From positions 24,001 to 83,333 of the forward strand of contig JAIUMA010000009.1 of NCBI GenBank assembly GCA_022565795.1: 59,333 bases of DNA, read 5' to 3'. Source of the DNA: Balneolia bacterium (GTDB lineage Bacteria > Bacteroidota > Rhodothermia > Balneolales > Cyclonatronaceae). Of the stretch, positions 10,512 to 46,702 are shown in pieces (the stretch's first letter is position 1; each line of letters begins with the position of its first letter). The position numbers and the translations under genes were made by a program. The notes beneath the pieces were generated by a model. It searched no databases. It was not told the DNA's origin and worked only from the letters and a program-made list of their open reading frames with translations.

Positions 10512-11249
10512 TTACAGTACAGAACCTAATTCTGCGCGCCAGCGGTTCAGGTAGCGGAAAGCCGGAAGCATCCGTGATCCGTACCAGCTGAAAAACTCGC
10601 CGTTTACAAGCATTGGTTTTGATCCTGGTACCTCTTTTTCAAGTTCAGAAACGTGCTTTACCGAAAACGGATAGGGTTCACTGCTCAGCAGAATAAGCTG
10701 AGGCGCTAAACGGCGGAGATCATCGGTTGTTATCTCCGGATAGCGCTGGTCATCAGCGAAAACGTTTTTGAGGCCCCATTTGTCCATAACATGATGAATA
10801 TACGTATCCCCGCCGACTGTCATGTATGGTTTTTTCCAGATCAGATAGGCCGCCGTTAAAGGTTCGAATGTTTCTGCTTTTTTCAGCTCCCGGTTGATGG
10901 CGTTGGTGAGTTGCTTTCCGGCCTGCCCGGTTTCGGTGCGCTCCGCGATTTCGGTAATCGAAATCAGCGCGTCTTCAATGGTATTGATATCGGTAACGAG
11001 CAGGTCGGCAACCTGCTCCAAAAGCAGCGCGTCCTCCTTACGGTTCTCCTCTTTATTCATGATGATGAGATCCGGACTGAGTTCCTTTATCCGGTCGATA
11101 TTCGGATTTTTTGTACCGCCAACAATGGCCACGTTTTCAACACGGTCGGCAGGGTGAATGCAAAAACGGGTGCGGCCAACAACATTTTCGGCGAGACCTA
11201 AATCAAAGAGCAGTTCAGTTAGGCTTGGTACAAGACATACAATTCGCAT
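10512..11249 (-). CDS. Helical-backbone metal receptor (BtuF-like) without signal peptide
   Basis: 245 residues of the class III binding-protein fold used by BtuF and siderophore receptors. The start MRIVCLVPSLTELLFDLGL is the family's first strand-helix. VVGRTRFCIHP, VAIVGGTKNPNIDRIKELSPDLIIMN, a long connecting backbone helix and a second lobe (WGLKNVFADDQRYPEI, LAPQLILLSSEPYPF) follow in order. There is no export signal or lipobox and no ABC transporter partner, so it is presumably cytosolic. It lies 9 bp behind the fructosamine-kinase gene, suggesting co-translation. Many Bacteroidota carry such signal-less members; ligand and role are unknown. C6 and C29 are the only cysteines I noted. 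Confidence 0.8.
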   Translation of the reverse strand: MRIVCLVPSLTELLFDLGLAENVVGRTRFCIHPADRVENVAIVGGTKNPNIDRIKELSPDLIIMNKEENRKEDALLLEQVADLLVTDINTIEDALISITEIAERTETGQAGKQLTNAINRELKKAETFEPLTAAYLIWKKPYMTVGGDTYIHHVMDKWGLKNVFADDQRYPEITTDDLRRLAPQLILLSSEPYPFSVKHVSELEKEVPGSKPMLVNGEFFSWYGSRMLPAFRYLNRWRAELGSVL

Positions 11250-11258
11250 GGCAGAAAA

Positions 11259-12122
11259 TCAGGTATACTGGTTGAAAATGGCGTTCGCCTGACTCACATA
11301 TCCACCGCCAAACAGGTTTACGTGAACCAGAACCGGGTACAAATTATAGAGATCCCGCCTTTGGGCAAAACCGGGCTCAATCGGCCAGGCCTCCTCGTAG
11401 GCTTCATAAAAGCCGGCAGGGAAGCGCCCGAAAAGCATAGTGAACGCCAGCTCGATTTCGCGATTGCCGTAATAGACGGCGGGGTCAATCAACGCGGCCT
11501 GGCCCGACTCGCTGTAAAGATAGTTGCCGCTCCACAGATCCCCGTGAAGGAGTGAGGCCGGCTCATCAGGAAACAGTGAGGCCGCCGAGCGCTGCAGAAG
11601 CGGAAGTTTTTTTATACAGGATGATGGCATCAGGCCCGAATCTACGGCAGCGCGGATTTGCGGCTCAATGCGGCGAATCATGAAAAACGTAACCCAATCC
11701 TCATGCGGACTGTTGTTCTGAGGCAGGCGCCCGATGTAGTTGTTGTGGGAGAGGCCATATCCCGATGCTGTATTCCTGTGCAGTGCGGCGAGACCGTTTC
11801 CAAACTCGCGGTCAGTTGTGCTTCCGTTGCTGCCTTCATGGATATATTCCATTACAATCCAGCTGTAGGACGCGTTTTTACCAGTGCTGTATACCTCAGG
11901 CACAAGAAGCGTGTCCGTATGTTTCCGCAGCAGGTCGAGACCCTGATGTTCAGTTTCAAACATGGATGCTCTGGCTGCCGTATTCCACTTAATTACCACA
12001 CGTTCGGAGCCGGAGTCGGCAACGGCAGCATCGTTAATTGAGCCTCCGCTTAGCGGATACTCATTTCTAAGGGTGATGCCCTCTGCGGCTTCGACATCCC
12101 GTTTTATGGAATCCGGTATCAT
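11259..12122 (-). CDS. Fructosamine kinase family protein (ketosamine/ribulosamine 3-kinase)
   Basis: 287 residues with the aminoglycoside-phosphotransferase-like kinase fold of the FN3K family. ATP-site Lys45 lies in RVVIKWN. The catalytic loop LLHGDLWSGN (about 191-200) has Asp195, and the metal-binding IDPAVYYGNREIE carries Asp213. Family enzymes phosphorylate C3 of sugar amines on glycated proteins, making the adduct unstable and restoring the amine. Bacterial members characterised so far prefer ribulosamines or erythrulosamines. The start overlaps the phosphatase stop by 4 bp (ATGA), so the two are translationally coupled. This matches reported kinase-LMW-phosphatase pairing and supports a deglycation role, though the substrate here is inferred. 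Confidence 0.9.
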   Translation of the reverse strand: MIPDSIKRDVEAAEGITLRNEYPLSGGSINDAAVADSGSERVVIKWNTAARASMFETEHQGLDLLRKHTDTLLVPEVYSTGKNASYSWIVMEYIHEGSNGSTTDREFGNGLAALHRNTASGYGLSHNNYIGRLPQNNSPHEDWVTFFMIRRIEPQIRAAVDSGLMPSSCIKKLPLLQRSAASLFPDEPASLLHGDLWSGNYLYSESGQAALIDPAVYYGNREIELAFTMLFGRFPAGFYEAYEEAWPIEPGFAQRRDLYNLYPVLVHVNLFGGGYVSQANAIFNQYT

Positions 12123-12646
12123 GGAGACACTTGAGGTTTCAGCTGCTCGAGCAGCTGTTTGCAGCTCCTTTCAACTATTTGGAAGACGTTCTCAAATCCT
12201 GAAAGTCCGCCGTAATAGGGATCGGGTACTTCACCGTCCTCAGGTTTTGGATCGTATTCCCGTAAGAGCTGAACCTTCTCCTTATGGTCTTCAGAATCGG
12301 TCATCGCGAGGATATTTTCCAGGTTTTCTTTGTCCATCGGGATAATGAGGTCGTAATAATCGAGATCAGACTTCTTGAACTGGCGCGCACGGCTCAGAAG
12401 CTTCACCCCGTGGGACTCAGCTACCTGACTGCTTTTGCTGTTTGCCGGCTGACCTACGTGAAAAGCCGAGGTTCCGGCCGAGTCAATTTCAAAATAGTTT
12501 TCAAAACCGGACTCGTTTACCAAATGCTGAAAAATGCCTTCACCGGTGGGGCTGCGGCAGATATTGCCAAGGCAAACGAATACAAGTTTATATGGTTCAT
12601 TCTCTGTGATGGGCCTGAGCGGCGGAAGTTTCATCCATGATGACAT
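12119..12646 (-). CDS. Low-molecular-weight protein-tyrosine-phosphatase family protein
   Basis: 175 residues. The P-loop CLGNICRS (Cys25 to Arg31, CX5R) and the general-acid loop DPYYGG (Asp142) are intact, so the enzyme should be active. The family dephosphorylates phosphotyrosine, but some members next to fructosamine kinases act on sugar 5-phosphate adducts of proteins. The 4-bp overlap with the kinase gene makes the second role attractive: removing the 5-phosphate of a ribulosamine 5-phosphate so that the kinase can act. No tyrosine-kinase or capsule gene is nearby, which weakens a polysaccharide-control role. The N-terminal 20 residues (MKLPPLRPITENEP) extend beyond the usual family start, and a shorter start is possible. 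Confidence 0.9.
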   Translation of the reverse strand: MSSWMKLPPLRPITENEPYKLVFVCLGNICRSPTGEGIFQHLVNESGFENYFEIDSAGTSAFHVGQPANSKSSQVAESHGVKLLSRARQFKKSDLDYYDLIIPMDKENLENILAMTDSEDHKEKVQLLREYDPKPEDGEVPDPYYGGLSGFENVFQIVERSCKQLLEQLKPQVSP

Positions 12647-34371: not shown

Positions 34372-34515
34372 CAAAGTCTTCTTAGGCAATAGAACGCGTT
34401 AAGGTACGTAATCGGTTACTCTTATGCGAAAGCTGCACAGGTTTTCGGAAATCGGGTGCAATGCAAAAGGCGGTTGTCTTATCTTACCGACTCTAATTTT
34501 AATGAAATTCGACTT

Positions 34516-36339
34516 ATGGATACAAGAGCTTTACTTACAACTTTATTAGTGTTAATCATCACAATTTCGGGCATTTTTAAGGACCAGGCCGTGGCACAGT
34601 CCGGTGATGAAGGCGTTCAGAATGATGAAATTATGACCATTGCCGAGGCCCGGCAGCAGCCGCTGGGTACCGTAATTACCGTAACCGGCTGGGTTACGGT
34701 AACGGATGAATTCCGCGGCCCGGTTTATTTCCAGGATGAAACAGGCGGCCTGGCCTGGTACAATGGTCCGCTTATGCGCGTTGGTGATTTCGATATAGAT
34801 GTTGCCCACGGAGATTCTTTGGTAATCACCGGTACGCTATCGCAGTTTGGAAACACAGTTACTCTGGATGATGGTCTTCGCCAGATTACCAACGAGCAAA
34901 GTTTTACGATTTATCCGGAAGGAAACCGCCAGATTGATCCGCTTCTAATTACCGTTGAAGAGCTCAACAGCACCGACTTTGAAGGTCAGCTTGTGCAGAT
35001 TGAAAATGCCTATGTCGATCATTTGGGTGAGCTGCGAGGCAACACGAACTACACGCTTGTCGACAACTCCGGTGAAGGCGTTTTCCGGGTTGATGGCTTC
35101 AGTGGTGTTGCAAAAACGCCCGCTCCAAACGAACCGACTACACTTGTAGGCGTGGCCGGAATGTTTCGCGGTGATGCCCAGCTGATTCCAAGAAACGCTT
35201 CGGAAGCCAATCCGATTCCGCGGCCGGGCGATGAAATTTCACAATCCGAAACCTTCGACGTTGTAACATGGAATATCGAGTGGTTTGGCAGCAATCAGAA
35301 CGGACCAAGCGATATTGAGCTCCAGATTGAAAACGTTATTGAGGTTATTACAACCATCGATGCCGATTTGTATACCTTTCAGGAGATTGCGAACGCTTCC
35401 CGCTGGGTACAGCTCGTAAACGCCCTTGAAGATTTTGATGGTTTCCGTGCCGGTTACTCCATCACCCAGAATACGGCATTTCTTTACAGAACTGATACCA
35501 TTGAGCCAATCGCTTCCGGACTTCTGGAAACCGGCCAAAGCGTATTCGACTGGGCCAGCCGTCTCCCGCTTTGGTTTAACTTTAACGTAACCATAGGTGG
35601 TGAAACCCGGGAGGTTCATGCCTACGGCGTGCATGCAAAAGCATTTCCTGATGCGGAGTCCTACCAAAGAAGAGTTAACGCCTCAACCCAGCTGAAAACC
35701 TATCTGGATAACAACCGTCTGGGTGAGAATATCATTTTCTTCGGTGATTTTAACGACAAGCTTCTCAGCTCTACGCGTTCCGGATTTCCGTCGCCTTATG
35801 AAAACTTTGTAAGTGACCAAAACTACCTTCCGATTACAGCTACGCTGGAAGAGGGGGGGATGAGCTCGTTCCGCTTTGTGGATATAATCGATCACATTAT
35901 TGTGTCCGGTGATCTCGCAAACTACCATATTGCCGGCTCGGAACGCGTTGAAAACACGAATGCGTACATCACTAATTTCGAAGGCACAACTTCAGATCAC
36001 TATCCGGTATGGACGCGTTTTGACTTCAGCAACTTTGTTTCTATTGATGAGCCGGAGAATGACCTGCCGCAGGCGGTCACCCTGGCACAGAACTACCCAA
36101 ACCCGTTTAACCCGACCACTAACATCAGCTTTCAGCTGCCGGAGTCTCAGCAGGTTACGCTAACGGTATATGATGTAACCGGTCGTCGCGTAGCTACACT
36201 CCTAAACGGAGAAACGCGCCAGTCGGGTGAGCATACCATTACGTTTGACGCCTCGAACCTGGCTTCGGGTATATACCTGTATCGTTTGTCAACGGCTGCA
36301 GGCCAGACGTTTACCAACAAAATGATGCTCGTCAAATAA
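34516..36339 (+). CDS. Secreted OB-fold / endonuclease-exonuclease-phosphatase protein with T9SS sorting domain
   Basis: About 607 residues. From the ATG at 34516 there is a signal peptide (MDTRALLTTLLVLIITI...AVAQS); the frame is open 20 codons further to a GTG, which would hide it. Domains in order: an OB-like domain (VITVTGWVTV, YFQDETGGLAWYN) and a middle strand-rich part; an EEP-family catalytic domain (TWNIEWFGSN, FQEI, FFGDFNDKL, TSDHYPVWTRF) with metal and catalytic residues apparently intact; and a C-terminal type A T9SS domain (NYPNPFNPTTNISF ... KMMLVK). It is likely exported across both membranes as a DNase or phosphodiesterase/phosphatase. It is closed by its own terminator. Confidence 0.88.
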   Translation: MDTRALLTTLLVLIITISGIFKDQAVAQSGDEGVQNDEIMTIAEARQQPLGTVITVTGWVTVTDEFRGPVYFQDETGGLAWYNGPLMRVGDFDIDVAHGDSLVITGTLSQFGNTVTLDDGLRQITNEQSFTIYPEGNRQIDPLLITVEELNSTDFEGQLVQIENAYVDHLGELRGNTNYTLVDNSGEGVFRVDGFSGVAKTPAPNEPTTLVGVAGMFRGDAQLIPRNASEANPIPRPGDEISQSETFDVVTWNIEWFGSNQNGPSDIELQIENVIEVITTIDADLYTFQEIANASRWVQLVNALEDFDGFRAGYSITQNTAFLYRTDTIEPIASGLLETGQSVFDWASRLPLWFNFNVTIGGETREVHAYGVHAKAFPDAESYQRRVNASTQLKTYLDNNRLGENIIFFGDFNDKLLSSTRSGFPSPYENFVSDQNYLPITATLEEGGMSSFRFVDIIDHIIVSGDLANYHIAGSERVENTNAYITNFEGTTSDHYPVWTRFDFSNFVSIDEPENDLPQAVTLAQNYPNPFNPTTNISFQLPESQQVTLTVYDVTGRRVATLLNGETRQSGEHTITFDASNLASGIYLYRLSTAAGQTFTNKMMLVK

Positions 36340-44227: not shown

Positions 44228-46702
44228 ATGATGAAACAGTTACAACTCCTGATTATAGGTTTGATAATCTCCGGATTTATGTATCTCGACGCTTTTGCAC
44301 AGCAAGAGGTAACTATCCGTGAGCTCAATACCTACGAATTCCCGCTTGAGAGCCAAGATGACCTTCCGAACCATCCCTTGGTAGGTGTACCGGTATCTTT
44401 CGATGCTGTGGTAGTTTCATATCCAAGAAGCTCTGGTCTGGCAAACATTACTGCAGCCGGCGTTCCCGGTCGTATTCACGTTTTTGTTGCTGATGTTAAC
44501 GCAATCGAAGACGGTCTTGACGGAAATTCCATGCAAATCGTAGTAGCCGGCGCGCTGCGCGAAACGCTGGAAGGGCTTGGCCGTGGCGATGTTATTAATG
44601 TAGTTGGTGAACTTACGTTCTTTGGAAATGTTGGACAGTTTAACGCTACTGACATCAATTTCCTTGGAAGTGCAAACGAGCCTGGTGAGTTCGAAGACCT
44701 GCTTCCGCTTCTTGAGCCAACCGTAATTTCTATGGATGAACTCAATATCCCGGCTGATACTGAAGGACTGTTCCAGTGGAATGCTGAAAATTATACCAAG
44801 TACATCTTCCGCTATGTAAGAATCGAAGGTGCTGAAGTTATTGACCGCCTTGAGGCTGATAACGGTCGTCCATGGATGATTGCTTCACAGGGAAACAGCG
44901 TAATGGTATCTAACGATACTTCGCTTCGTTACAGAAATGACCGTAACAACTACGCTTTTGATCCAGAAACAGGCAATGGCCTTAATTACAACTACCGTCG
45001 CCCGGCAGTTGATGGTCCATTCGTACCGCCTGCAACAGGTTCACTGGTAAACTGGTCTGGTTTCCCTGTGGTAAATACGTTTAACCCGGGTGGTACAGAT
45101 GTTGCCGGCAACCAGTCTACGCTTAAGCTTGCTTATTTCGAAGATGGCTTTGTATGGGTCGCCGATGGCGACGATCCTGCGAACCGCTTTGCTCCTGAGG
45201 GATGGCCAAACGACCTTGTGGTTGTAGGTTTCCCACCGGTTTTCGAAAACTTCACGCTAACTCCGGAAGGCAATATTAATGGCGGAGATGATGTGTCTCT
45301 TTCCATCGATATTACCCTCGCTGAAGAAGATTACAGCTTCGAAAGCGTAACTATCGAGTATAACACGCTTAACTACACAGAAGATGAGCCAACTACATTC
45401 GATGGCGTGCTTGATCAAAGTGGCAACAACTTCACGTTCGATTTTGGCTCTTTTGGTGATTTTACATCAGTAGATTTTACTATCATTGCTCAAATCACAA
45501 CAGGCGACGGTACACCGATTACTGGTACATTTAGTGAGTCCTTCTTTGTTGGTAATGAAGACCTCACCTCTCCGGTACTTTTCTCTCCGGCTTCCGGCGA
45601 ATTTACTGACTTCGTTCAGGTATCGCTGAGCTCTCCAACTGAAGAGGCCACTATCTACTACACGATTGATGGTTCTGAGCCAACTGAAGAATCTCTTGTT
45701 TACGGATCTCCGCTGGTACTTACCGAAACCACTACTGTTCGCGCTATTGCAACAAGCAGTGGCCTTGGCAACAGTCCGGTTAACGAGCGTACGTACGTTG
45801 TAGCTAACGAAAACCTTGTTGATGTTTCTACAATTGGTGAGCTGAGAGAAGGCCTCAACGATGGCACGCTCTACCGACTAACCGGTGATGCAGTAGTTAC
45901 CTTCACCCGCGCTACCAGAAATCAAAAGTACATCCAGGATGAAACCGGTGGTGTGCTAATCGATGATGCAGCAGGTCGTGTTACGGAATTCTACGCAACC
46001 GGCGACGTAATGACCAATGTAATTGGTACACTGAGTGTATTCCAGGGAGTAATTCAGTTTACTCCGCAGGCAAACCCGGGTGCCCCAACCGGCAACGAAG
46101 ACGTAATGCCTGTTGATGTTACCCTGGCTGACATCGATCTCGACGTGCACGAATCAGTTCTCGTTCGCGTAACTGATGTAAACTTTGGTGGTGTTGCCGG
46201 TACATTCAGTGTAAACACCAACTACGATATCCTTGACCCGTCTCTTGATGATGGCGAATCACGTGTTTTCAGAACTATTTTTAACGAAAACGAAGTGAAC
46301 TACATCGGTATGCCAATTCCAAGTGGTAACATCACACTTACTGCGCTGGTATCTCAGTTCAACGGTACCATCCAGCTTACCGCACGTAGTGGTGCAGACC
46401 TCGGCATGGATGTAAGCACACGCGATGATGAAATCCCAAGTGGTTTCGAACTTAGCCAAAACTACCCGAACCCGTTCAACCCTACAACGAACATCCGCTA
46501 CACGCTTCCTGAAGCAGCTGATGTAACGCTTACGGTTTACGACGTTCTGGGCCGTCGTGTAGCTCTGCTTGTAAACCAGCAGCAGACTGCAGGCCAGCAC
46601 ACGGTAAGTTTTGATGCTTCAAGACTGGCTTCCGGTACTTATATCTACCGTATCCAGGCCGGAAACTTTACTTCCACCAAGAAAATGATGCTCATTAAGT
46701 AA
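44228..46702 (+). CDS. Multi-domain secreted protein with OB-like, chitobiase-C-like and T9SS domains
   Basis: 824 residues. Signal peptide ends near DAFAQQ. Two OB-like units with DUF5689-like features are visible: one near the N-terminus (GDVINVVGELTFFGNVGQFNATD) and one after residue 530 (LYRLTGDAVVTF, QKYIQDETGGVLIDD). Between them is a chitobiase/hexosaminidase C-terminal-like module (VSLSSPTEEATIYYTIDGSEPT...RAIATSSGLGNSPV). The end is a standard type A T9SS tail (NYPNPFNPTTNIRYTLPEA, VYDVLGRRVALLV, GTYIYRIQ, KMMLIK). The QDETGG strand is shared with the nuclease-like protein at 34516. It is likely a surface polymer-binding or adhesive protein; no catalytic domain is seen. A bulged hairpin follows the gene. 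Confidence 0.85.
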   Translation: MMKQLQLLIIGLIISGFMYLDAFAQQEVTIRELNTYEFPLESQDDLPNHPLVGVPVSFDAVVVSYPRSSGLANITAAGVPGRIHVFVADVNAIEDGLDGNSMQIVVAGALRETLEGLGRGDVINVVGELTFFGNVGQFNATDINFLGSANEPGEFEDLLPLLEPTVISMDELNIPADTEGLFQWNAENYTKYIFRYVRIEGAEVIDRLEADNGRPWMIASQGNSVMVSNDTSLRYRNDRNNYAFDPETGNGLNYNYRRPAVDGPFVPPATGSLVNWSGFPVVNTFNPGGTDVAGNQSTLKLAYFEDGFVWVADGDDPANRFAPEGWPNDLVVVGFPPVFENFTLTPEGNINGGDDVSLSIDITLAEEDYSFESVTIEYNTLNYTEDEPTTFDGVLDQSGNNFTFDFGSFGDFTSVDFTIIAQITTGDGTPITGTFSESFFVGNEDLTSPVLFSPASGEFTDFVQVSLSSPTEEATIYYTIDGSEPTEESLVYGSPLVLTETTTVRAIATSSGLGNSPVNERTYVVANENLVDVSTIGELREGLNDGTLYRLTGDAVVTFTRATRNQKYIQDETGGVLIDDAAGRVTEFYATGDVMTNVIGTLSVFQGVIQFTPQANPGAPTGNEDVMPVDVTLADIDLDVHESVLVRVTDVNFGGVAGTFSVNTNYDILDPSLDDGESRVFRTIFNENEVNYIGMPIPSGNITLTALVSQFNGTIQLTARSGADLGMDVSTRDDEIPSGFELSQNYPNPFNPTTNIRYTLPEAADVTLTVYDVLGRRVALLVNQQQTAGQHTVSFDASRLASGTYIYRIQAGNFTSTKKMMLIK

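Follow-up and report, generated by a model that had tools for sequence, protein, structure and literature searches.

In 11 genomes, genes for low-molecular-weight phosphatases (LMW-PTPs) have reportedly been found immediately preceding those for FN3K homologues. Of five FN3K homologues studied, four are said to phosphorylate ribulosamines/erythrulosamines, with E. coli YniA being inactive, and the LMW-PTPs of Thermus thermophilus and S. aureus reportedly act on both phosphotyrosine and ribulosamine 5-phosphate. In the repair scheme proposed for these enzymes, a ribose 5-phosphate (R5P) adduct is dephosphorylated by the LMW-PTP and phosphorylated at position 3 by the FN3K homologue, followed by spontaneous release (Gemayel et al. 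2007, FEBS J 274:4360; restated for S. aureus PtpA in a passage of PMC5617981). In the literature accessible to our search, nothing on the FN3K/LMW-PTP pair was found beyond citations of the 2007 work.

Here we analyzed a gene pair of these two families in a stretch of 59,333 nucleotides from the genome of a Balneolia bacterium (contig JAIUMA010000009.1; referred to as the window). Like the Thermus thermophilus operon described by Gemayel et al. (2007), the pair has the phosphatase gene first and directly adjacent, so that an LMW-PTP gene lies immediately upstream of an FN3K gene. Unlike that operon, it belongs to another phylum, is known from sequence alone, and sits in an order-specific envelope/IleRS block. 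The features of the locus are as follows.

10512..11249, minus strand: BtuF/TroA-like helical-backbone metal receptor, 9 bp downstream of the kinase gene
11259..12122, minus strand: predicted FN3K-family ketosamine (ribulosamine/erythrulosamine) 3-kinase, PF03881, 287 aa (profile match, catalytic residues)
12119..12122, minus strand: 4-bp ATGA overlap between the end of the phosphatase gene (stop TGA) and the beginning of the kinase gene (start ATG); the plus strand reads tcat
12119..12646, minus strand: predicted low-molecular-weight phosphatase, LMW-PTP class I, PF01451, 175 aa (profile match, catalytic residues)

Gene structure and active-site residues

The original prediction described both genes as intact and joined by an ATGA overlap of 4 bp, and the open reading frames, profile matches, catalytic residues and the sequence itself all agree with this description. 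The stop/start overlap suggests translational coupling of the two genes.

The kinase open reading frame contains no internal stops. Its product matched the Pfam profile PF03881 (Fructosamin_kin) with 265 bits (gathering cut-off 22.4) and an E-value of 1e-78, covering profile positions 16–284 of 288, and the profile search detected a single PF03881 gene in the genome. The residues I29, K45, E58, H193-G-D195-L-W197, D213 (the Asp of DPA), H267 and F271 are present. Across 137 bacterial homologues, K45, E58, D195, W197, D213, H267 and F271 were invariant or nearly so, and D195 and W197 of the HGDLW motif were invariant. Profile and catalytic residues thus both assign the predicted protein to the ketosamine 3-kinase family PF03881. 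In human FN3K, the counterparts of I29, D195 and W197 are I25, D217 and W219, and loss of any of these abolishes activity (PMC13223202). The positions of human N287 and H291 are occupied by Val and Leu in the window kinase; the human N287A and H291A variants stay active (PMC13223202). The closest solved kinase structure is the plant protein-ribulosamine 3-kinase 6oid (E-value 4e-43), which has the HGDLWSGN motif in common with the window kinase and also carries Leu at the H291 position, whereas it is a chloroplast enzyme and the window kinase has Val instead of Asn at the N287 position. F244 of FN3K, which has been linked to fructosamine use in vertebrates, corresponds to Ile in the window kinase, and Phe was never among the commonest residues at this position in the 137 homologues. 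Reading the substrate from the kinase residues was rejected as weak, since active-site residues in the vertebrate work do not settle fructosamine versus ribulosamine specificity.

The phosphatase matched the profile PF01451 (LMWPc) with 147.5 bits and an E-value of 4e-43, and is the only full-length PF01451 gene that the profile search detected in the genome. It possesses the P-loop CLGNICRS and the acid loop DPYYG, with the predicted nucleophile C25, R31, the acid D142, Y144/Y145, and Ile29 in the P-loop. C25, R31 and D142 were invariant in 144 phosphatase homologues, and the CX5R(S/T) signature together with the acid Asp places the protein in LMW-PTP class I. The second-best solved match is 2cwd, which we take to be a Thermus LMW-PTP. 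The proteins slr0328 (5o7b), YfkJ (4etm) and human LMW-PTP belong to the same family and share the CLGNICRS and DPYYG loops; however, these are named phosphotyrosine phosphatases, whereas the substrate of the window protein is only predicted. Matches to the Wzb and YwlE branches of the superfamily were much weaker (E-values of about 1e-16 and 1e-10, respectively). Thr at the P-loop position of Ile29 selects phosphoarginine and is found in YwlE, whereas Ile is of the tyrosine-phosphatase type, which speaks against a YwlE-type protein-arginine phosphatase. Probably, the window phosphatase accepts phosphotyrosine too.

A second, weak LMWPc match in the genome is an arsenate-reductase-like protein with the motif CTHNSRRS (207 aa; G000:C12:14000-18500, 1740-2363). 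Its gene directly precedes an MsrA-like gene, and a similar weak match occurs in many relatives.

In all respects that can be tested in the sequence, the window pair fits the published FN3K/LMW-PTP repair pair.

Linkage and co-occurrence of the two genes

Conservation was assessed in 79 genomes of the order, comprising the window's own genome and 78 relatives; the closest named ones are Balneolia/Balneolales metagenome-assembled genomes. The kinase was present in 75 and a phosphatase-family match in 78 of these genomes, and 74 contained both genes at full length. In 57 of the 74 two-gene genomes, representing 22 genera, the phosphatase gene was located directly upstream of the kinase gene on the same strand. 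In a further 14, it preceded the kinase gene on the same strand at a distance of 0.6–3.3 kb, and the two genes were on different contigs in the remaining three. The reversed gene order was never observed among the 74 genomes. Among the 71 loci with adjacent genes that were examined, 23 showed the 4-bp overlap, and in most of the others a potential start codon lay no more than 30 bp from the stop.

Genes inserted between phosphatase and kinase were lineage-specific wherever the intervening stretch was inspected, and were thus rejected as a common part of the unit. In genera g14, g19 and g27, a TetR regulator and a FabF-like beta-ketoacyl-ACP synthase gene are located between the two genes on the same strand. 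Several g25 genomes carry genes for a sigma factor, a small unannotated protein and a DUF6249 protein at this site on the opposite strand, an insertion that probably breaks co-transcription while proximity persists. Phosphatase-kinase gene fusions were looked for unsystematically in the gene listings, and none were noticed.

The unevenly sampled phylum set consisted of 198 genomes, 81 of which contained the kinase. Outside the order, the phosphatase gene was directly upstream at 29 of 52 kinase loci and in 11 of 18 families. Linkage there was nearly always all-or-none per family, and the kinase gene was unlinked in seven sampled families. The same adjacency was found in named Cytophagales (Cyclobacteriaceae, Cytophaga and Sporocytophaga). 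At the two proteobacterial kinase loci inspected, the only ones outside the phylum, the phosphatase gene was beside the kinase gene in neither case. By a rough estimate, one gene placed randomly among ~3000 would lie directly upstream of another on the same strand in about one genome per several thousand, and the observed adjacency (57/74 in the order and 29/52 loci outside) is more common than this chance expectation. The count of conservation in related genomes, which had been proposed as a check on the original prediction, thus showed that the pair is kept across the order and elsewhere in the phylum.

A full-length LMW-PTP (E-value of about 1e-30 or better) was encoded in all 81 kinase-containing genomes of the phylum sample, compared to 49 of the 117 genomes without the kinase (Fisher's exact test, which ignores shared ancestry; p = 2e-21). 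The co-occurrence is one-sided: genomes with the kinase always have the phosphatase, whereas the reverse does not hold.

Alternative roles and the surrounding genes

The kinase may repair ribulosamines while its neighbor is a general LMW-PTP, whose main role lies elsewhere (e.g., in the phosphotyrosine turnover of BY-kinases involved in polysaccharide export) and for which repair is secondary. We regard this division of labor as possible but unlikely. It would be in line with the status of the phosphatase as the sole full-length LMW-PTP of the genome, and with the presence of a BY-kinase above the cut-off in 52 of the 79 order genomes, which mostly have the same pair. Moreover, in family f5 the phosphatase is kept although the kinase is missing from three of four genomes, so that the phosphatase can serve without the kinase. 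A tree of 92 phosphatases followed taxonomy with paired and unpaired copies intermixed; because it showed about 13 gains or losses of pairing and no single paired clade, a dedicated repair subfamily of LMW-PTPs was rejected. However, the pair also exists in genomes without any BY-kinase above the cut-off, including that of the window, every genome of the phylum sample with an FN3K homologue has the phosphatase, and neither a BY-kinase nor a Wzz gene was found next to the pair in the window or in the relatives inspected. The phosphatase may have further or dual roles beyond repair.

In f5, the phosphatase gene is flanked by recF-like and methylmalonyl-CoA mutase genes, and the kinase gene is absent or located elsewhere.

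The original prediction had favored repair over signaling on the grounds that the pair sits in an envelope gene train without a tyrosine kinase. This argument proved weak and found no support. The window contains no tyrosine kinase, and the same is roughly true of the genome, but this absence cannot separate the two roles, given that the pair is also present in relatives that do possess tyrosine kinases; the envelope gene train itself is a local neighborhood of this order only. The genome of the window contains no BY-kinase above the cut-off and one degenerate, sub-threshold BY-kinase-like ATPase of 238 aa, which is devoid of a tyrosine-rich tail and adjoins Wzz-type and O-antigen-ligase-like genes (G000:C1:114500-119500). 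The gene of a Wzb-type BY-kinase partner would be expected beside a BY-kinase or Wzz gene. The phosphatase gene has no such neighbor, and the ATPase gene, the single BY-kinase-like gene of exopolysaccharide type in the genome, is situated on another contig and scores below the cut-off.

A salvage function, in which the pair would act on free ribuloselysine or other small ketosamine phosphates instead of proteins, appears very improbable. The published LMW-PTPs and kinases are reportedly active on free lysine adducts as well, but a transporter or deglycase-type gene was not seen recurring beside the pair.

Within the order, the pair travels with genes for IleRS and the BtuF-like protein, and in several families also with TPR, LolB-like and EnvC-like genes. 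Outside the order, the flanks of the pair (1.5–4 kb, phylum sample) yielded none of these genes, and its immediate neighbors vary by lineage. The conserved unit is the pair and not the wider block, and a third conserved partner gene was rejected, since none recurred outside the order. Many genomes of the order have the BtuF/TroA-like gene, found here downstream of the kinase, in linkage with the pair. Its product has no evident signal peptide and is apparently cytoplasmic. We treat this gene as context only, because it was not found beside the pair elsewhere in the phylum sample. The least credible explanation is that the linkage is functionally meaningless, inherited synteny of an old cluster: the wider block is indeed kept too in several families of the order, but the pair persists outside the order where none of the block neighbors were found, the 4-bp overlaps recur, and the co-occurrence is one-sided.

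Elsewhere in the window, two secreted proteins (34456-36339 and 44228-46702) have similar C-terminal tails of the type IX sorting-domain kind, reading LTVYDVTGRRV ... KMMLVK and LTVYDVLGRRV ... KMMLIK, respectively.

A proposed unit for the repair of sugar-phosphate adducts

We consider it likely that the pair forms a translationally coupled two-enzyme unit for the repair of proteins carrying ribose 5-phosphate (or erythrose 4-phosphate) adducts. In this route, ribose 5-phosphate (or erythrose 4-phosphate) would react spontaneously with lysine side chains to form protein-bound ribulosamine 5-phosphate. The LMW-PTP would take off the 5-phosphate of the ribulosamine adduct, and the FN3K-family kinase would next phosphorylate C3 of the sugar, yielding an unstable 3-phosphate whose elimination would release free lysine. 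The substrates and the order of these steps are presumed by analogy to what has been published for other homologues from bacteria. The support obtained here consists of the intact genes, their catalytic residues, the conserved gene order and linkage, and the co-occurrence of the two families.

Since the pairing was already described in other bacteria in 2007, the pair in the window is most likely a well-conserved but ordinary example. A broader reading is that FN3K-type repair depends on LMW-PTP across the phylum, and that many "orphan" LMW-PTPs of bacteria therefore have the ribulosamine 5-phosphate adduct, and not phosphotyrosine, as their main natural substrate; we put this forward as a speculative and rather doubtful extension. 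What our data add is scale, namely a strong, lineage-wide linkage of the two genes and their one-sided co-occurrence in the phylum. This makes the clade suitable for testing whether LMW-PTPs with housekeeping roles act mainly as phosphatases of sugar adducts.
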